Positions 11,788 to 33,700 of a DNA stretch of 64,000 nucleotides are shown here, one piece after another (position 1 is the stretch's first letter; each line of letters begins with the position of its first letter). The translations under genes and the position numbers were made by a program. The DNA lies in contig NZ_CP137854.1 in the NCBI RefSeq assembly GCF_033546935.1, forward strand, positions 1,922,001-1,986,000. Reading direction: 5' to 3'. A model generated the notes under the pieces. The model did no database searches. It was not told where the DNA came from and saw nothing but the letters and a program-made list of their open reading frames with translations. The stretch is from Xylophilus sp. GOD-11R (GTDB taxonomy: Bacteria > Pseudomonadota > Gammaproteobacteria > Burkholderiales > Burkholderiaceae_C).

Positions 11788-12468
11788 TCAGGGAGCCGGA
11801 AGATGCTGCGGGAGAAGCGTATTGTGATCGACCTCGGAGGCGGGAACGCCCACCCGGGGCGACCGACTCGGATCGGCGCCTGACGGCACCAGCCTGACCA
11901 TGGTGGGCCCACGGGTCGCGCTGACTGGTGTCGCTACGCCCGGGCGGCGCGGCACGACCGTCGCGGCGAGCTTGTCGCGCTCTTCTCCGGTGAGGGCTTG
12001 GTAGGCCTCCCAGCGCGCCTTTTTTTGGTCAGGGTCGACCTTGCGCGCTTCAGCATAGTTCAACCGAGCCTGGTCGCGCTCTGGCGCACTGAGCCCTGCC
12101 CATGCACTCATGCGTTCATGCACCCGGCTTTTCTCATCGGCAGGCCAGGCGTTGAAATTGCGGGAAATGGCGATCCACTTGCGCCGGTGGCCCTCTGACA
12201 GGGTGGTCCAGTGGGGTGCCAGCGGTGCAAGCGCCTCGCGTTGCTCCTGCGTCAGCTCGTTCCAGGACGGTCGGGAAACGGCCGCCGCTGCGGTTGGAGT
12301 CGCGATGGGCACCGCTGACGGGCCTTTGGGCGACAAATGCGCCTGCGCCCAGGTGCCCTGAGCGCATGCCAGCAGCATGCCGACCGCGCCTGCAAGCGTT
12401 CCGACCGCGCGCGCGCAGTGGCGCACGCGGCGAGCCCAATGCGATGGAGCCAATTTGCGCATCAACAT
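11788..12468 (-). CDS. DUF3106 domain-containing exported protein
   Basis: 226 aa with an N-terminal hydrophobic signal segment (VGTLAGAVGMLLACAQGTWAQ). The DUF3106 repeat-like core (WNELTQEQREALAPLAPHW, W.AISRNFNAWPADEKSRVHERM, WAGLSAPERDQARLNY) is followed by a Pro-rich tail. The spacing of acidic/Trp-rich helices recalls LTXXQ-type periplasmic stress sensors. Usually encoded next to a sigma factor and DUF3619, as here; function unknown. Confidence 0.82.
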   Translation of the reverse strand: MLMRKLAPSHWARRVRHCARAVGTLAGAVGMLLACAQGTWAQAHLSPKGPSAVPIATPTAAAAVSRPSWNELTQEQREALAPLAPHWTTLSEGHRRKWIAISRNFNAWPADEKSRVHERMSAWAGLSAPERDQARLNYAEARKVDPDQKKARWEAYQALTGEERDKLAATVVPRRPGVATPVSATRGPTMVRLVPSGADPSRSPRVGVPASEVDHNTLLPQHLPAP

Positions 12469-25241: not shown

Positions 25242-26348
25242 ATGAGCATCGAAATCCGCAACGTCAACAAGCAGTTCGGCGACTTCCACGCGCTGCGCGA
25301 CGTCAGCCTGGACATCGCCTCGGGCGAACTGATCGCGCTGCTCGGCCCCTCGGGCTGCGGCAAGACGACCCTGCTGCGCATCATCGCCGGCCTGGAAAGC
25401 GCCGACGCCGGCAGCATCCTGTTCTCGGGCGAAGACACCACCGATGTCCACGTGCGCGAGCGCCAGGTGGGCTTCGTGTTCCAGCACTACGCGTTGTTCC
25501 GTCACATGACGGTGTTCGAAAACGTTGCCTTCGGTCTGCGCGTCAAGCCGCGCAACCAGCGGCCGAGCGAAGCGCAGATCAAGGAAAAGGTTCATTCGCT
25601 GCTGAATCTGGTGCAGCTCGACTGGCTGGCCGATCGTTATCCGGCGCAGCTCTCCGGCGGCCAGCGGCAGCGCATCGCCCTGGCGCGTGCGCTGGCGGTC
25701 GAGCCCAAGGTGCTGCTGCTCGACGAGCCCTTCGGCGCGCTCGATGCCAAGGTGCGCAAGGAACTGCGCCGCTGGCTGCGCCGGCTGCACGACGAGTTGC
25801 ATGTCACCAGCATCTTCGTCACCCACGACCAGGAAGAGGCGCTGGAAGTGGCCGACCGGGTGGTGCTGATGAACGGCGGCCGGGTGGAGCAGAGCGGCTC
25901 GCCGCAAGAGGTCTGGGACCATCCGGCCAGCCCCTTCGTGTATGGCTTCCTGGGTGATGTGAACCTGTTTCACGGCCGCGCCGACCAGGGCCGGGTGAGC
26001 TTCGAGGGCGTGAACCTGGAGGCGCCGGAGCATGCGGAGGCCAGCGACCAGCGCGCCTTCGCCTATGTGCGGCCGCACGACTTGGAAGTGCAGGCTTATT
26101 ACCCCGACGCGGTTGGCGAATCGCACGGTGGCATCCTGGCTACGCTCGAGCGTGCCATCGTGGTCGGCCCGATCGCGCGGTTGGAGCTCGCACCGACGCA
26201 GCCGCAGTCGGGCGAGGGTGGCGACACGCCGGCCATCATCGAGGCCCAGTTGCCGGCCGAGCAATACCGTGCACTCGGCCTGAGCGAAGGCCAGACGGTG
26301 CTGGTCACGCCACGCCGCGCACGGGTCTTCGTGGACGACAAGCGCTGA
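25242..26348 (+). CDS. cysA: Sulfate/thiosulfate ABC transporter ATPase CysA
   Basis: ATP-binding subunit of the sulfate importer. 368 aa: Walker A GPSGCGKT (35-42), signature LSGGQRQR, Walker B LLLDEP and switch His in VTHDQEEAL. The C-terminal TOBE-like domain (about 240-368) includes VRPHDLEVQ. Good ribosome-binding site (AGAGCAAAC region). Last gene of the cluster. Confidence 0.95.
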
Positions 26349-26469
26349 GGCCGCGCAGGCCACAATAAGGCCCTGACCGGCTCGGCGAGGCCGGCGGGGC
26401 GGAACCAATCCGGGGGCCGCCGCACCAATGGCAGGGCGACCGCAGTGGCGCCGGAGGAAACCAATCGTG

Positions 26470-26988
26470 ATGAGTATTTTCGGCGCGCAACCGCGCAAGG
26501 TCCTGGCGCTGGTCTGCGCCGCATGCGTGGCCATGCTGGCTTTCGGCCTGTACCTGCAACATGTCGTGGGACTGGAGCCTTGCCCCATGTGCATCGTGCA
26601 GCGCTACGCGCTGATCCTGCTGGCGGTGTTCGCCTTCGTCGGTGCCTTGCTGGCTGGCAACGGCGGGCGCAAGACGCTGGCTTTTCTGGGCCTGCTGACC
26701 GCCGGCTTCGGCGCCTTCGTCGCGGCGCGCCAGAGCTTTCTGCAGTGGTATCCGCCGGAGTTCGCATCGTGCGGCCGTGACTTCTACGGAATGATCGAAA
26801 CCTTTCCGCTGCAGCGCGCCATTCCCATGATCTTCAAGGGCAGCGGCGACTGCACCGCGATCGATTGGACCTTCCTCGGCGGCTCCATCGCCAACTGGTC
26901 GTTCGTATGCTTCGTGGTCCTGGGCCTGGTGCTGTTGGCCGTGCTCGTGACGCCGGCCCGCCGCCCGCGCCGCGTCGGCGACCGATAA
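26470..26988 (+). CDS. dsbB: Disulfide bond formation protein B
   Basis: Inner-membrane oxidase that re-oxidises periplasmic DsbA and passes electrons to quinone. 172 aa, four helices. First redox pair is CPMC (C38, C41), second pair C101 and C128; the quinone-site Arg in QRYALIL is present. ATG chosen after GGAGGAAA; a GTG immediately upstream is possible. Confidence 0.92.
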   Translation: MSIFGAQPRKVLALVCAACVAMLAFGLYLQHVVGLEPCPMCIVQRYALILLAVFAFVGALLAGNGGRKTLAFLGLLTAGFGAFVAARQSFLQWYPPEFASCGRDFYGMIETFPLQRAIPMIFKGSGDCTAIDWTFLGGSIANWSFVCFVVLGLVLLAVLVTPARRPRRVGDR

Positions 26989-27144
26989 GGACCCGGGCCG
27001 CCGCTACGAGCGGCGGCGCCTGAGGCTCGAAACATTCGTGATCGGGCAAGCCGGGCAGGCATCCTTGGCTGCATCGGATCTGCGCCACGGTGACGACTCG
27101 CTGACGTGACTCCGGAGCGCGCCGAAAAGCGCTCCGCGCCGCCT
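26989..27144. other. Convergent gap between dsbB and argA with two hairpins
   Basis: 156 bases with no supported gene. A hairpin GCCGCCGCT/AGCGGCGGC near 26999-27019 lies after dsbB, and GGAGCGC (27114-27120)/GCGCTCC (27129-27135) just after argA. Both may be terminators although neither has a T-run. Confidence 0.5.
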
Positions 27145-28494
27145 TCAGGCCAGCTTCTTCACCAGCACCTGGCTCTTGCGATCCCAGTTGTATTTGCGCT
27201 TGCGAGCCTCGGGCAGCCAGTCGGGCTCCACCGGCTGGAAGCCCCGCTTGATGAACCAGTGCATGGTGCGTGTGGTCAGCACGAAGATGCTGGTCAGGCC
27301 CATGGAGCGGGCGCGCTGCTCGATGCGGCGCAACACCTTCTCGCCGTCGCCCTGGCCCTGGCTGAGCGGCGACACCGTCAGCGCCGCCATCTCGGCGGTG
27401 CGTGCGTCCGGATAGGGATACAGCGCGGCGCAGGCGAAGATCACGCCGTCGTGTTCGAGCACCGTGTACTGGTCGGCATCGCGTTCGATCTCGGTGCGGT
27501 CGCGCTTGACCAGCGTGCCGTCGCGCTCGAAGGGTTCGATCAACTGCAGGATGCCGCCCACGTCGTCGGCCGTGGCCTGGCGCAGTTCCTCGAGCTTCTC
27601 GTCGATCACCATGGTGCCGATGCCGTCGTGTACGTACACCTCCAGCAGCAGCGAGCCGTCGACCGCGAACGGAATGATGTGGTTGCGCTCCACGCCGGCC
27701 TTGCAGGCGCGCACGCAATGCTGCAGGTAGAAGGCGACGTCGCTCGGCTGCTGGGGTTGAGGCAATTGGGCCAGCAGGGCCTCGGCGGCGGCCAGCGGCA
27801 TCTCGGTGTCGATCGGGTTGTCGTCGCTCGCGGGCTCGGAGGGCTGCATGCGCACGCCGGGCACCTCGGTCATGAAGATCAGCTTGTCGGCCTGCAGCTC
27901 GATCGCCACGCTGGTCGCGACCTCTTCCATGGTCAGGTTGAAGGCCTCGCCGGTCGGTGAAAAACCGAAGGGCGAGAGCAGCACCATGGCGCCCATGTCG
28001 ATGCAGCGCAGCAGGGCCTCGGTGTCGACCTTGCGCACCAGGCCCGAATGCTTGAAGTCGACCCCGTCCACGATGCCGACCGGCCGCGCGGTGATGAAGT
28101 TGCCCGACACCACCCGCACCTGCGCGCCCGCCATCGGCGTGTTGGGCAGGCCCTGGCTGAATGCTGCCTCGATCTCGTAGCGCAACTGGCCGGCCGCTTC
28201 CTGGGCGCAGTCGAGCGCCACGCTGTCGGTGATGCGCATGCCGTGCGAGTAGCGCGCTTCGTGGCCCTTGGCGGCCAGCTGTTCGTTGACCTGCGGCCGA
28301 AAGCCGTGCACCAGCACCACCTTCACGCCCATGGACTGGATCAGCGCGATGTCCTGCGCGATGGCCGGTAGCTTGCCGGCGGCGATGGCCTCGCCCGCCA
28401 CCGCCACCACGAAGGTCTTGCCCCGGTGCATGTGGATGTAGGGCGCCACCGAACGGAACCAGGGCACGAAGGTGAAATTGAAGACGGCGGACAT
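27145..28494 (-). CDS. argA: Amino-acid N-acetyltransferase (N-acetylglutamate synthase)
   Basis: Acetylates glutamate with acetyl-CoA, the first step of arginine synthesis. Classical two-domain ArgA, 449 aa. N-terminal amino-acid-kinase-like regulatory domain (FVVAVAGEAI, VLVHGFRPQVNEQL, LLSPFGFSPTGEAFNL) where arginine feedback acts. C-terminal GNAT domain (AALTVSPLSQGQGDGEKVLRRIEQRARSMGLTSIFVLT) binds acetyl-CoA. Start MSAVFNFTFVPWFRSVAPYI matches the family N-terminus. Confidence 0.95.
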   Translation of the reverse strand: MSAVFNFTFVPWFRSVAPYIHMHRGKTFVVAVAGEAIAAGKLPAIAQDIALIQSMGVKVVLVHGFRPQVNEQLAAKGHEARYSHGMRITDSVALDCAQEAAGQLRYEIEAAFSQGLPNTPMAGAQVRVVSGNFITARPVGIVDGVDFKHSGLVRKVDTEALLRCIDMGAMVLLSPFGFSPTGEAFNLTMEEVATSVAIELQADKLIFMTEVPGVRMQPSEPASDDNPIDTEMPLAAAEALLAQLPQPQQPSDVAFYLQHCVRACKAGVERNHIIPFAVDGSLLLEVYVHDGIGTMVIDEKLEELRQATADDVGGILQLIEPFERDGTLVKRDRTEIERDADQYTVLEHDGVIFACAALYPYPDARTAEMAALTVSPLSQGQGDGEKVLRRIEQRARSMGLTSIFVLTTRTMHWFIKRGFQPVEPDWLPEARKRKYNWDRKSQVLVKKLA

Positions 28495-28531
28495 GGAGCG
28501 GCGCAGGGCGGGGCAGGTGGGCAGGCCGGCA

Positions 28532-30571
28532 TCATAAAGGTGGTGCCGCCGGGCCCGGGGCTGCCTGCGGCGCGGACTCCGCCCGCTGCCGAAAAGCCGC
28601 GAGCCGTTGCGCGAAGGGCGCGAGCACCAGGCCGTCGTCGGGCAGGGTGGCGTCGGCCTCGCTCGGCGGCGCCAGCGACAGGCCGCTGGCCTGCAGTAGC
28701 GCCACCATGTCGGCCGGCTCTATGGACCCCCGCGCTAGCAAGGTGTCCACCATACGGCCCAGGACTTCGCGCTGCTCCTGCAGCAGTTCCAGGCCGCGCC
28801 GGTATTGCTGTTGCAGCAGCACCTCGATGGCCCAGTCGGTGGGTGTGATGTCGGTGTTGATGTCGGCATTGGCTTCCATCGTCACGTCGGTGCGGGAAAG
28901 GCGCGAGCTGAAGCCGTGGCGCCGTACGTGTTTGGCAGCATCCGCCGTGACCTGACGGATGTCCTGTTCGGCGCCGGTGGTGCAAGTCATGTCACCGAAG
29001 ACCAGCTCTTCGGCGGCGCGCCCGGCCAAGCCGACGCACATCATGTCGACCGCGTTCTGCCGGGTGGTGACCTTGCGGCGCGAGAAGCTGTTGTAGCCGC
29101 CCTCGTAGGAGGCGATGTTGATCCTGACCTCCTGCGGTGCATGGCCGAACAGCAGGCAGTACACCAACGCGTGGCCCGCCTCGTGCACCGCCAGCAGCGC
29201 ACGCAAATCGGCATTGGAGCGCTGGCGTAGCCGACTCAGCTCCAGCGCTACCGGAAGGGTGGTTTCCACCGGCCCCCCCGGCCCCCGTCCGCGCACCAGC
29301 AGGTGCCGGCGGGAGGGCGCCACACCGATGGAAAACGGCTGGTCCGTCGGCAGACCTTGTTCAAGTACCCACAGCGCCGCCTTGACCAGATTTGCGCTCA
29401 GGATGGAATGGATCGACGAGAACAGCGGGCGCGTACCCTGCGCCGGGAACACGCCGTTGGCATAGAGCTCATCGAGCAAGTCCTGGCCGAGCACGAAGCG
29501 TACGCGGCATTGCGCGGCGATATCTCCCAGGTAACTTTCGCATTGCTGGCGGATCAGGCGTTGGTAGGTGGCCTTGCCGAGCGACGGATACACCACGTGC
29601 TCGTTGCCGAGCCGTGCGATCTGCTCGGGCTTGAAGCGGTCGGCAAGCGCTTTTTTCACGTCGATCAGCGACAGCTGGCGTGTGAGCCGGTGAAAGATGT
29701 CGGCGTTGGTGTCGCTGTCGGCCACACGCTGCGCGGTCTCCTGGTACATCTCGTCGAGGTTGCCGCACACGAAGACCAACAGCCGGCTGTAATCGGTCTC
29801 CCAGGTCTGGGCGGACGCCTGGAACTGCTGGAAGAGCGCCTGCACTTTCGTCGACGGCCATTGCATGATTTCGGCGAGCGGCTCGCGCAGCTTGAGCATG
29901 CGTTTCAGTTCCTGGGCATCGTAGGCATCGAGCTGAAATCGCAACGGCGGCTTGCCCGCTCTCGTCGCTTCCTCGCCGTCTTCGCGTTCCTCCTTGTAGA
30001 TGGCGTTGGCCAGCATGCGCTCGACGTTGGCCAGGGAGCTCAGCGCCGGCGGCAGCCGGCCGTCGGACAGCAGCGTCCACACGTCCTGGTAGCGTTCCAC
30101 CTTCACGTCGTCGCCCTTGGGGTGGATGGTGCGAAAGCGCTGGAATTCGTCGAGCACCAGCATGCCGGGCGAGCCCTCCACGATGCTCGACTCGCCCAGC
30201 AGGGCCGAGATGGTCGAAACCCGGAATGCCGCGCCGTGGCTGAAGCCGTCCATCTGCACTTCCACGAAACGGTCGTAGAAGTCGAGCAGCTGCGCCAGGC
30301 GCCGGGTGAGCTGGGTCTTGCCGGTGCCGGTGAGGCCCCAGAGGCAGACGATGACCGGGCGCCGGATCAGCTGCGGCCACACATACCAGGCGCGCACCGC
30401 GTCGATCACGCGGTCGATCACCTCGTCGATGCCGAACAGCTCCTGCTTCAGCTGCGCCGCGACCTTCGCCAGCACCTGCTGGCGCGCGGTGAGTTCGGCG
30501 ATGTCGGCACGGCCTGGGTCGTTGGACGTGGGGATCGGCGCGATGGTGCTGTCGGTGACCGGAACGGACAT
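28532..30571 (-). CDS. Clp-like AAA+ ATPase fused to an M41 (FtsH-type) zinc metallopeptidase
   Basis: 679 aa, apparently cytosolic with no membrane segment. AAA+ part about 45-400: Walker A GLTGTGKT (79-86), Walker B LVLDEF (138-142), sensor-1 Asn in FVCGNLD, sensor-2 Arg in GTRPLF (R381), of the ClpA/ClpX/HslU kind. Peptidase part about 455-630: HEAGH zinc site (463-467), third ligand candidate D537 in GAEQDIRQ, and the FtsH-like GLAGRAAEELVFGD. True FtsH has two N-terminal helices and a different AAA module, so this is a separate architecture. Start set by AGGAGG 7 bases before ATG. Substrate unknown. Confidence 0.88.
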   Translation of the reverse strand: MSVPVTDSTIAPIPTSNDPGRADIAELTARQQVLAKVAAQLKQELFGIDEVIDRVIDAVRAWYVWPQLIRRPVIVCLWGLTGTGKTQLTRRLAQLLDFYDRFVEVQMDGFSHGAAFRVSTISALLGESSIVEGSPGMLVLDEFQRFRTIHPKGDDVKVERYQDVWTLLSDGRLPPALSSLANVERMLANAIYKEEREDGEEATRAGKPPLRFQLDAYDAQELKRMLKLREPLAEIMQWPSTKVQALFQQFQASAQTWETDYSRLLVFVCGNLDEMYQETAQRVADSDTNADIFHRLTRQLSLIDVKKALADRFKPEQIARLGNEHVVYPSLGKATYQRLIRQQCESYLGDIAAQCRVRFVLGQDLLDELYANGVFPAQGTRPLFSSIHSILSANLVKAALWVLEQGLPTDQPFSIGVAPSRRHLLVRGRGPGGPVETTLPVALELSRLRQRSNADLRALLAVHEAGHALVYCLLFGHAPQEVRINIASYEGGYNSFSRRKVTTRQNAVDMMCVGLAGRAAEELVFGDMTCTTGAEQDIRQVTADAAKHVRRHGFSSRLSRTDVTMEANADINTDITPTDWAIEVLLQQQYRRGLELLQEQREVLGRMVDTLLARGSIEPADMVALLQASGLSLAPPSEADATLPDDGLVLAPFAQRLAAFRQRAESAPQAAPGPAAPPL

Positions 30572-30770
30572 GCAAAATACCTCCTGGTGGGTCGGCGTGA
30601 AATGGAGTGGCCGTGCGCATAGGCAGGCCCATTTCGATTTTGCGGACCGCCCAGGTGTCGGCGTCACCTTCGCCATGGAGCGAACGGACCGGTCATGTCC
30701 CCGCGCGCCCCTGGTAGGACTCACCCCCGGCGGGCGGCGGCGGCGCCATGTTTGGATAATCCACCCCCTT

Positions 30771-33700
30771 ATGTCCGTATCCGACCCGCGCCAGCCCACG
30801 TCTTCCGCCACCGAACCAGCGCCTGCCCGGCCGCGCATCGAGTTCCCCGAATCGCTGCCGGTCTCGGCCCGGCGCGAAGAAATCATGGCCGCGCTCGCAG
30901 CGCACCAAGTCGTCATCGTCAGCGGCGAAACCGGCTCCGGCAAGACCACGCAGCTGCCCAAGATCGCGCTGGCCATGGGGCGCGGCAAGCTCAATGCGCC
31001 GCCCGGCAAGGGCCGGCTCATCGGCCATACCCAGCCGCGCCGCATCGCCGCGTCGTCGGTGGCCAAGCGCATCGCCGAAGAACTGAAGACACCGCTCGGT
31101 GAAGTGGTCGGCTACAAGGTGCGCTTCCAGGACCGGCTGAGCCGCGACGCCTCGGTCAAGCTGATGACCGACGGCATCCTGCTGGCCGAAACGCAGACCG
31201 ATCCGCTGCTCAAGGCCTACGACACCATCATCATCGACGAGGCCCACGAGCGCAGCCTCAACATCGACTTCCTGCTGGGCTACCTGCGCGAGATATTGCC
31301 GCGCCGCCCCGACCTGCAGGTGATCGTGACCTCGGCCACGATCGACGCCGACCGCTTCGCCAACCATTTCGCCTCGGCCCGGGGGCCGGCGCCGGTCATC
31401 CACGTCACCGGCCGCACCTTCCCGGTGGAGCAACGCTGGCGGCCGTTCGAGGAAAGCCGCGACTACGGCATGAACGAAGCCATCGCCGACGCGGTCGACG
31501 AGCTCTGGCAGGACCCCCGGCAAAGCGGCGACATCCTGGTGTTCTTTCCCGGCGAGCGCGAGATCCGCGAGGCCGCCGACCATCTGCGCGGCCACCTCAG
31601 CCACCACGCGGTGCTGCGCAACGCCGAGGTGCTGCCGCTCTTCGCCCGGCTGTCGCAGGCCGAGCAGGACCGCATCTTCGAGAGCCATTCCGGCCGGCGC
31701 ATCGTGCTGGCCACCAACGTCGCCGAAACCTCGCTGACGGTGCCGGGGATCCGCTACGTGATCGACACCGGCACCGCCCGCGTCAAGCGCTACAGCTACC
31801 GCAGCAAGGTGGAGCAGTTGCTGGTGGAGCCGATCAGCCAGGCGGCGGCCAACCAGCGCGCGGGCCGCTGCGGGCGGGTGGCCAACGGCATCTGCATCCG
31901 GCTCTACGGCGAAGACGACTTCGCCGGCCGGCCGCGTTTCTCGGACCCCGAAATCCTGCGTTCGTCGCTGGCCGGCGTCATCCTGCGGATGAAGTCGCTG
32001 CGCCTGCGCGACGTGGAGGAGTTTCCGTTTCTGGAGGCGCCGCAGAAGCGCGCGATTTCCGACGGCTACCAGCTGTTGTCCGAACTCGGCGCGGTGGACG
32101 ACGACAACCAGCTAACTCCGGTCGGCCAGGAGCTGTCGCGCCTGCCGCTCGATCCGCGCATCGGCCGCATGATCCTGGAAGGCCGCGACCGCGGCGCGCT
32201 CGACGAGGTGCTCACCATCGCCAGCGCGCTCAGCGTGCAGGACGTGCGCGACCGCCCGATGGACGCCCAGGCCCAGGCCGACCAGGCGCACGCCAAGTTC
32301 GACGACGACCGAAGCGAGTTCAGCGGCTATCTCAAGCTCTGGAAATGGCTGCACGACGCACGCGGTGGCGCGCCGGTGGCCACCACGCGGCGGCAGATGG
32401 CGGCGCAGCAGCCGGGAGCCGGCGCCAGGCGCGGCAACCAGGCCTTTCTGCCGGTGTCGCAGCGCAGCGTGGCGCCGGCTGTCGCCGCGCCGCCGGCCCC
32501 GGCGGTGGCCGAGGCGCCCACCCACAAGCTGAGCAACCGGCAATACGAGCAACTGCTGCGCGCCAATTTCATCAGCATCCGCCGGGTGCGCGAATGGCGC
32601 GACATCCACTCGCAACTCGTCGCCACGGTGCAGGAGCACCACTGGCCGATCAACGCCGATCCGGCCAGCTACGAACAGCTGCACCAGGCCATGCTCGCCG
32701 GGCTGCTGGGCAACATCGGCTTTCGTCCGGAAGACGCCGGCAGCGCGGGTAGCACCCAGGCCGGCGGGGCAGGGCGGGGTGCGGCGGGCGGCGGCGAATA
32801 CCTGGGCGCGCGCGGCATCAAGTTCCACAAGCATCCGGGCGCGCATCTGTCGAAGAAGCCCGGTCGCTGGATCGTCGCGGCCGAGCTGGTCGAAACCACC
32901 CGGCTATTCGGCCGGGGCATCGCCGCGATCGAGCCGACCTGGCTCGAAGAGGTCGGCTCGCATCTGCTCAAGAAGCAACTGCTCGACCCGCACTGGGAAA
33001 AACGCGGCTCGGAAGTCGTCGCGCTGGAGCGCGCCACGCTCTACGGCCTGGTGGTGTACAGCGGCCGGCGCGTGCCCTATGCGCGGGTCGACATGGCCGC
33101 GGCGCGCGAGATCTTCATCCGCGAGGCGCTGGTCGGCGAGCAATGGGAATCGAAGCTGCCGTTCCTGGCGGCCAACCGCAAGCTGATCCGCCAGGTGGAA
33201 GAACTCGAGCACAAGTCGCGCCGCCAGGACGTGCTGGTGGACGACGAACTCATCTATGCCTTCTACGACCAGCACCTGCCGCCGGACGTGTTCGACGGCC
33301 GCAGCCTGGAGCACTGGTGGCGCGAGGCCTCGCGCGGCCAGCCGCGGCTGCTGCACCTGGAGCGCGACGAGCTGATGCGCCACGAGGCGGCCGGCATCAC
33401 CACCGACGCCTTTCCCCGCACGCTGCGCATGGGCGGCGTCGACTGCGCGACCGAATACCTGCACGAACCGGGCAATGCGCGCGACGGGTTGTCGGTGGCG
33501 GTGCCGATCTTCGTGCTCAACCAGATCGGCGAAGACCGCGCCGAATGGCTGGTGCCGGGCATGCTGCGCGACAAGGTGCAGGCGCTGCTCAAGAGCCTGC
33601 CGCAGAAGCCGCGCGCGCGCCTGGTGCCGCTGCCCGAGAGCGCCGCGCGCATCACCCAGGCGCTGGTCGAGCCCACGGTGTTCGGCCACGGCACGCTGAT

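Follow-up and report, generated by a model that had tools for sequence, protein, structure and literature searches.

A protein joining a Clp-type AAA+ motor to an M41 zinc protease domain in Xylophilus sp. GOD-11R, with relatives in Burkholderiales and on viral contigs

The textbook bacterial AAA+ proteases are a handful of motor-protease pairings. In HslUV and ClpXP the protease is a separate subunit from another family, and in Lon motor and protease share one soluble chain, the protease being of the S16 Ser-Lys type; the Clp-branch protein Skd3 has ankyrin repeats and no protease. FtsH is described with one or two membrane helices in a 2022 review (PMC9020784). Here we describe a gene of Xylophilus sp. 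GOD-11R whose product joins a motor of Clp type to a protease domain of FtsH type. It lies in a stretch of 64,000 nucleotides (contig NZ_CP137854.1, positions 1,922,001 to 1,986,000), which is called the window below. We found no paper on a Clp-type motor fused to M41 among the titles and abstract starts of open-licence literature, so that an earlier mention may have escaped us.

A motor half and a protease half in one chain

The gene is an open frame of 679 residues on the minus strand of the window (28532-30571), as its translation shows, and the plus strand is interrupted by stops. Judged from the sequence and a predicted model, its single chain, free of membrane helices, contains an AAA+ module of Clp/HSP100-D2 type and an M41 peptidase, both complete. 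A sequence-only reading of this DNA had proposed just such a soluble two-part protein, and our analysis agrees, with the motor at residues ~27-404 followed by M41 at ~453-628. The positions it gave for Walker A (GLTGTGKT, 79-86), Walker B (LVLDE, 138-142) and the zinc site (HEAGH, 463-467) were correct; the sensor-2 motif GTRPLF is present as well, at 379-384 and not at 380-385, one residue earlier than it had been placed. That no membrane segment is seen was borne out by controls, as the highest 19-residue Kyte-Doolittle mean of the protein is 1.47, while the genome's own two FtsH-type proteins reach 2.13 and 2.69. A value of 1.6 is reached by 4 of 83 bacterial members, in stretches starting at residues 494-615.

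The observation goes beyond chance, since 82 other bacterial proteins align with this one over nearly their whole length and the motifs are invariant. This alignment of 83 near full-length proteins comprises that of the window, 78 of the 80 loci from one search for relatives and 4 from another, the fragments L102 and L112 having been taken out; some genomes may be present twice (L007 and L085 look alike). The set of 80 is the best 80 of 81 and covers close relatives only; its titles name mostly Burkholderiales genera and a few metagenome-assembled genomes labelled Gammaproteobacteria, Pseudomonadota, Proteobacteria or beta proteobacterium. A second alignment of 31 rows, 9 bacterial and 22 from the viral collection, holds proteins 24-50% identical to its first row. 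The following features were placed on the minus strand, and counts out of 83 or 31 refer to these two alignments.

28532..30571, minus strand: fusion protease gene, Clp-type AAA+/M41, 679 amino acids plus stop (open frame, translation, 82 near full-length bacterial relatives)
30579..30585, minus strand: Shine-Dalgarno sequence AGGAGGT, 7 nucleotides ahead of the ATG (from the sequence)
29360..30493, minus strand: AAA+ module, residues ~27-404 (predicted model; structure alignment to CLPB/Skd3 and ClpB; partial NCBIfam ClpB/ClpA matches)
30314..30337, minus strand: Walker A GLTGTGKT, residues 79-86 (identical in 83/83)
30212..30256, minus strand: loop of residues 106-120, in the position of pore loop 1 and lacking GYVG (aligned against Clp proteins of E. 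coli)
30140..30160, minus strand: Walker B and signature LVLDEFQ, residues 138-144 (D141, E142 and Q144 31/31; F143 30/31)
29786..30058, minus strand: insert before sensor 1, residues ~172-262 (mostly helical in the model)
29750..29770, minus strand: sensor 1 region VCGNLDE, residues 268-274, with N271 (31/31)
29603..29638, minus strand: arginine-finger region RFKPEQIARLGN, residues 312-323, with R320 (aligned with ClpB RPEFINR; R320 31/31, R312 28/31)
29420..29437, minus strand: sensor 2 GTRPLF, residues 379-384, with R381 (aligned with ClpB GARPLK; 31/31)
28688..29215, minus strand: M41 peptidase domain, residues ~453-628
29171..29185, minus strand: zinc site HEAGH, residues 463-467 (H463, E464 and H467 31/31; columns of E. 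coli FtsH H414, E415 and H418)
28961..28975, minus strand: GAEQD, residues 533-537, with D537 (31/31; aligned with FtsH GASND)

By these alignments, the key active-site residues are kept in bacterial and viral-contig members alike. Fifteen of the 19 columns tested are the same in all 31 rows (K85, D141, E142, Q144, N271, D273, E316, R320, R381, H463, E464, H467, E521, G533 and D537); in the remaining four, T86 is T in 29 rows and S in 2, F143 is kept in 30, R312 in 28 and F110 in 11. We take D537 to be the expected third zinc ligand, and R320, assigned by alignment, is presumably the arginine finger. The insert before sensor 1 measures 86-107 residues in the 9 bacterial and 100-185 in the 22 viral-collection proteins, at what we assume to be the place of the pre-sensor-1 hairpin or pore loop 2. 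The DEFQ that follows Walker B is a handy signature of the fusion proteins.

Motor ancestry and comparison with FtsH

Fold comparison and tree favour the D2 module of ClpA/B as the source of the motor. A D2-type AAA+ fold, a small domain and a GxRP sensor 2 are all found in it; the Pfam family ClpB_D2-small is not listed for the window protein, and its cut-off is passed only by L162, with L138, L150 and L155 below it. The AAA-module tree included 15 bacterial and 22 viral-collection fusion rows, and its rerun, of 53 rows, drops the D1 and Lon rows, a choice made after the first tree had been seen. In the rerun the 37 fusion rows form one branch (100/100) joined with ClpA/B D2 (98/88), and FtsH is separate (100/100), so that the ATPase half does not fall inside the FtsH AAA family, the placement that the sequence-only reading had singled out as speaking against it. 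That reading had assigned the motor to the Clp/HslU branch: Clp-type rather than FtsH-type stands, and the HslU part does not, as the motor is nearer to ClpA/B D2 and has no HslU-type insert, the long stretch that E. coli HslU carries between Walker A and Walker B being absent from the fusion rows. In the first tree, with D1 and Lon included, the fusion rows were on one side (99/99) and D1 joined them (94/66), probably through long branches. FtsH also keeps to one side of the M41 tree (100/99).

PF01434 (M41) scores 80.4 bits, over 29.9, and FtsH_fam (TIGR01241, NCBIfam) reaches 68.8 bits against a cut-off of 600, its alignment confined to residues 453-619. With PF00004 (AAA) the window protein scores 19.7 bits, below the cut-off of 21.2, which L138 (24.1) and L155 (27.4) exceed. 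By contrast, the membrane-type FtsH of phage Callisto, at 551.8 also under the cut-off of 600 for FtsH_fam, matches it over the whole length and has a classic AAA and FtsH_ext. In this Pseudomonas phage of 287 kb (L179) the ftsH gene lies near genes annotated clpS, small heat-shock protein and clpP. The genome of the window has three M41 loci; besides the canonical FtsH, it encodes another FtsH-type protein, which is divergent and has stretches of hydrophobic residues near its N-terminus (L002, C1:263557-264081).

Distribution, viral-contig relatives and a small upstream partner

A survey of Burkholderiales, suggested along with the sequence-only reading, revealed that the fusion family is patchy there and that a further family exists on viral contigs. 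A match at E 1e-30 or better was obtained in 31 of 299 genomes of the same taxonomic family, where one is a fragment (G296), another is split over two frames (G175) and three have one in-frame stop codon (G064, G170 and G316, G170 having a second copy without the stop). In a sample of the phylum 2 of 398 genomes matched at 1e-25, both from this family and one of them the window's own. An order sample gave 21 of 300 at 1e-15, of which only the window's own is full length; the other 20 match from model position 405 on, at the protease end. Six other genomes of the genus showed nothing beyond a match to the M41 part or a short one to the motor, and among plasmids 35 records match the fusion, none over 80% of the query.

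The gene sits between argA, on the same strand 37 nucleotides downstream of its stop, and the divergent hrpA, and it has its own ribosome-binding site (AGGAGGT), both as read from the sequence at the outset. In the sister genomes L168, L170 and L171 hrpA starts within about 170 nucleotides of argA; L169 and L173 have between the two an open reading frame that by eye is PIN-like, and in L172 no hrpA was found within 1.5 kb. A frame of this kind in two sister genomes makes the gap look like a hotspot of insertion. Of 94 loci, 34 have argA on the same strand downstream of the fusion and 33 have hrpA upstream of it, many flanks being too short to tell; the site is common to many Acidovorax-type loci, and contexts differ elsewhere. 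The composition of the gene is not strongly foreign, since its guanine-plus-cytosine (GC) content (0.664, window 0.667) and third-position GC (0.859; argA 0.927, hrpA 0.901) are near those of its surroundings. Rfam gave no match reaching the gathering score in window positions 26000-32000. No locus had a sigma-32 (heat-shock) pattern in the 300 bases upstream of the bacterial fusion genes, and a sigma-54 promoter with at least 10 matches was found upstream in 0 of 81 loci (1 of 81 after shuffling). At L080, L089, L100 and L109, rtcB and rtcA stand upstream of the fusion on the same strand, with an RtcR-like open reading frame, by eye, in L089. A general link to the rtcBA RNA-repair operon was rejected, as rtcB occurs in the flanks of only 6 of 82 loci.

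Scans of IMG/VR with growing alignments returned 3, 2, 27 and then 43 loci, in total 44 loci with 38 distinct proteins, and 36 of the 38 have Walker A and HExxH in order. L163 has no recognisable Walker A, and L166 (7854-9257) is a motor without the protease part; L151 has an additional, separate HExGH open reading frame (11792-12433) next to a complete fusion. The contigs are at least 200 kb long in 13 cases of 44 and at least 100 kb in 32, with a maximum of 413 kb. When ten chosen neighbours were compared with PHROGs, they included a terminase (L139), a clamp loader and a helicase (L155), a major head protein (L135), an endolysin (L165) and a sigma factor (L145); the remaining four matched families of unknown function, resembled PhoH weakly or had no match. 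In L155 the last bases of the clamp-loader gene overlap the start of the fusion, and a similar clamp loader and helicase lie upstream in L209. Relatives of DnaK, DnaJ and initiation factor 3 (IF3) are encoded downstream of the fusion in 7 of the 44 loci (L140-L146, L142 and L143 having the same protein), and Pfam confirms the three families in L139, which is on the same contig as L146. On these large contigs a sigma factor and a Nudix gene are often downstream of the fusion too. The DnaK and DnaJ neighbours are only a hint of an Hsp70-linked disaggregase role. DnaK and DnaJ encoded by phages are reported from 'moraphages', among whose common genes is a ClpA family (PMC12619734); IF3 is reported in huge phages in an article whose main text does not name FtsH, protease, chaperone, DnaK or Clp (PMC7162821).

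The full-length tree has 50 rows, with L163, L166 and L156 left out. Its 15 bacterial rows form one group with L158 (100/100), adjoining L155, L209, L210, L157, L211 and L215 (100/96) and then L159, and the far side of the tree holds the remaining 27 viral rows (100/100). One bacterial group amid more diverse viral members suggests, in this unrooted tree, transfer from phage to bacterium, and the bacterial copies probably come from large phages. Two short contigs near the bacterial clade, L135/L158 and L136/L156, may consist of bacterial sequence flanking a prophage. No phage record covered 80% of the query for any of four queries; L181, a record filed as phage MD-2021a, has a yhbY, ftsJ, ftsH, folP order that resembles a host chromosome. 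Among the 50 matches listed from predicted viral structures, the best template-modelling score by query was 0.39, for FtsH- or Clp-like pieces.

Upstream of the fusion and on the same strand, 74 of the 82 other bacterial loci have a gene for a basic protein some 80 residues long (for example L039:4659-4907 and L089:4736-4975) with the consensus MSAK..SRAF..G..K.LRRMKQP...PRNPVA.ALAQR.....AGKHIRS.GAQRRAD; among the 8 loci without it, L090 and L074 start too near the contig end to tell. With script-chosen start codons, its stop lies within 30 nucleotides of the fusion start in 49 loci, at or past it in 25, and within 200 nucleotides in 71 of the 74. This partner is conserved and of no known family: Pfam and NCBIfam gave no match, PHROGs only E 0.15 and worse, and plasmids none. 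When the two family samples of 299 genomes are treated as identical and a partner match must be better than 1e-14 to count (a limit set after viewing the list), both genes occur in 24 genomes, only the fusion in 7 (the window's genome included), only the partner in 3 and neither in 265 (Fisher p 4.4e-26, uncorrected for shared ancestry). L135, L136, L156 and L158 carry a divergent partner that overlaps the start of the fusion or lies right next to it; a profile search of the viral loci L138-L155, L157 and L159-L166 found none, L199-L215 lying outside that search. The partner is the best candidate for an adaptor or substrate of the fusion protease in most of the bacterial loci examined. It also occurs without the fusion about 1.6 kb from argA (L193:3213-3542, L195:2325-2576), and a related small protein is encoded directly upstream of argA in L197 (2364-2666). 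Seven weaker partner-like matches include other small proteins that share its C-terminal motif, and L190, L191, L192, L196 and L198 are small basic proteins or frame ends with C-terminal PRNP...G.H...A.R.A.K.AL, perhaps a wider unnamed Burkholderiales family.

Proposed function and relation to known proteases

Our preferred reading, to which we assign a probability of roughly 0.7, is that the fusion is a soluble, self-contained ATP-dependent zinc protease; its residues and predicted fold are compatible with ATP-driven proteolysis by a ring. Six subunits would form the ring, and ATP bound between them (arginine finger R320, sensor 2 R381) would drive a polypeptide through it into an M41 chamber, with the helical pre-sensor-1 insert near the pore exit. 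There zinc held by H463, H467 and D537 would cut the chain much as FtsH does, but off the membrane and powered by a motor descended from Clp. The Clp-type ring would thread or position proteins for the attached protease in the cytoplasm; ring formation, cleavage driven by ATP, any unfolding activity and the part played by the partner are our inferences. Apart from related bacteria, we found the pairing of a Clp motor with M41 only on viral contigs that are uncultured and often very large, and the fusion therefore looks like a distinct ATP-powered degrading machine. Somewhat short of an even chance, in our view, is the wider proposal of a further AAA+ protease class beside Lon, FtsH, ClpXP/ClpAP and HslUV, one that evolved in very large phages within their own folding kit (DnaK, DnaJ, IF3) and passed a single time to Burkholderiales, in which the 80-residue basic adaptor or substrate from the coupled upstream gene was added.

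Several observations weigh against the self-contained protease. The GYVG pore loop of E. coli ClpX, HslU, ClpA and ClpB is absent from the rows of the window protein, L061, L138, L150 and L155; as, moreover, an aromatic residue occurs within loop 112-120 in 73 of the 83 bacterial proteins and F110 in 11 of 31 rows, strong unfolding is uncertain. The predicted models are monomers only, with mean confidence (pLDDT, predicted local distance difference test) of 78.9 and 83.8. Foldseek E-values put FtsH chains first (6.2e-14, with ClpB nucleotide-binding domain 2 at 1.6e-11), and in structure alignment those FtsH chains that extend over both halves reach an equal Z (20.1, root-mean-square deviation 6.6). 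Holding the fusion and FtsH AAA together costs 5.6 log units, which the approximately unbiased test does not reject (p-AU 0.084), and the program warned that long branches meet in the AAA tree, so that a joint clade is disfavoured and no more. No partner was found in the genome of the window (best own-genome match E 0.017), and 3 of 299 genomes have a partner but no fusion, so the two genes need not go together. The DnaK/DnaJ linkage, finally, is limited to one viral subgroup.

Part of this would suit a dedicated processing protease, whose AAA ring picks out and positions one or a few partners (perhaps the 80-residue protein, or a regulator of phage or host) so that they are cleaved to a limited extent and not strongly unfolded: the rows compared have no GYVG, the loop aromatic is incomplete, a large lineage-specific insert precedes sensor 1 and the small partner gene is closely coupled. 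We nevertheless consider it unlikely, as the key ATPase and zinc residues are kept in 31 of 31 rows, the motor has the fold of threading machines and the partner was found neither in the genome of the window nor at the loci of the large viral contigs searched. A divergent FtsH that had lost its membrane anchor would explain the clearly FtsH-type M41 half, the Foldseek ranking and the p-AU value; the Clp-type small domain and GxRP sensor 2, an FtsH_fam match limited to M41 where the Callisto protein matches throughout, and an FtsH AAA clade of its own make such an origin very improbable. The patchy occurrence and a sister-genome site that is empty or holds a PIN-like frame would also fit a bacterial defence or conflict protein in a variable slot, its phage relatives being counter-measures. 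PADLOC, however, matched the three members tested weakly and over short stretches at most (best 3.6e-6, 88 residues), and the same argA/hrpA site recurs in many Acidovorax-type loci, the neighbours at other loci being annotated in part; we give this account little credit. An artefact of gene fusion or assembly, for which no supporting point was found, is refuted by the make-up shared among 83 bacterial and 36 viral-contig proteins and retains a negligible chance.

If the fusion is the soluble zinc protease that we propose, a Clp-descended motor with M41 in a soluble chain would mean that such modules can be re-paired. As a single-chain enzyme it would be compact and free of the membrane anchor that makes FtsH hard to work with, and its coupled small partner would be a handle on substrate choice. 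It would also point to virus-encoded proteolysis in huge phages, with host takeover, virion-protein quality control and counter-defence as possible roles.

With FtsH and the other M41 AAA proteases (E. coli FtsH, AFG3L2 and YME1) the fusion has in common a single chain, an M41 domain C-terminal to the AAA+ module, and HExxH with a distal Asp. It differs from them in having no membrane helices, a motor of Clp-D2 type instead of a classic AAA, an insert before sensor 1 and no FtsH_ext match. Compared with the D2 ring of ClpA/ClpB/ClpC and with Skd3/human CLPB, it has a single AAA module, no GYVG pore loop and a built-in protease. HslUV and ClpXP share with it, by analogy, soluble Clp-branch ATP-dependent proteolysis, and whereas the I-domain of HslU lies between Walker A and Walker B, the insert of the fusion comes after Walker B. 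Lon likewise unites motor and protease in one chain, but no S16 Ser-Lys domain was matched in the fusion.
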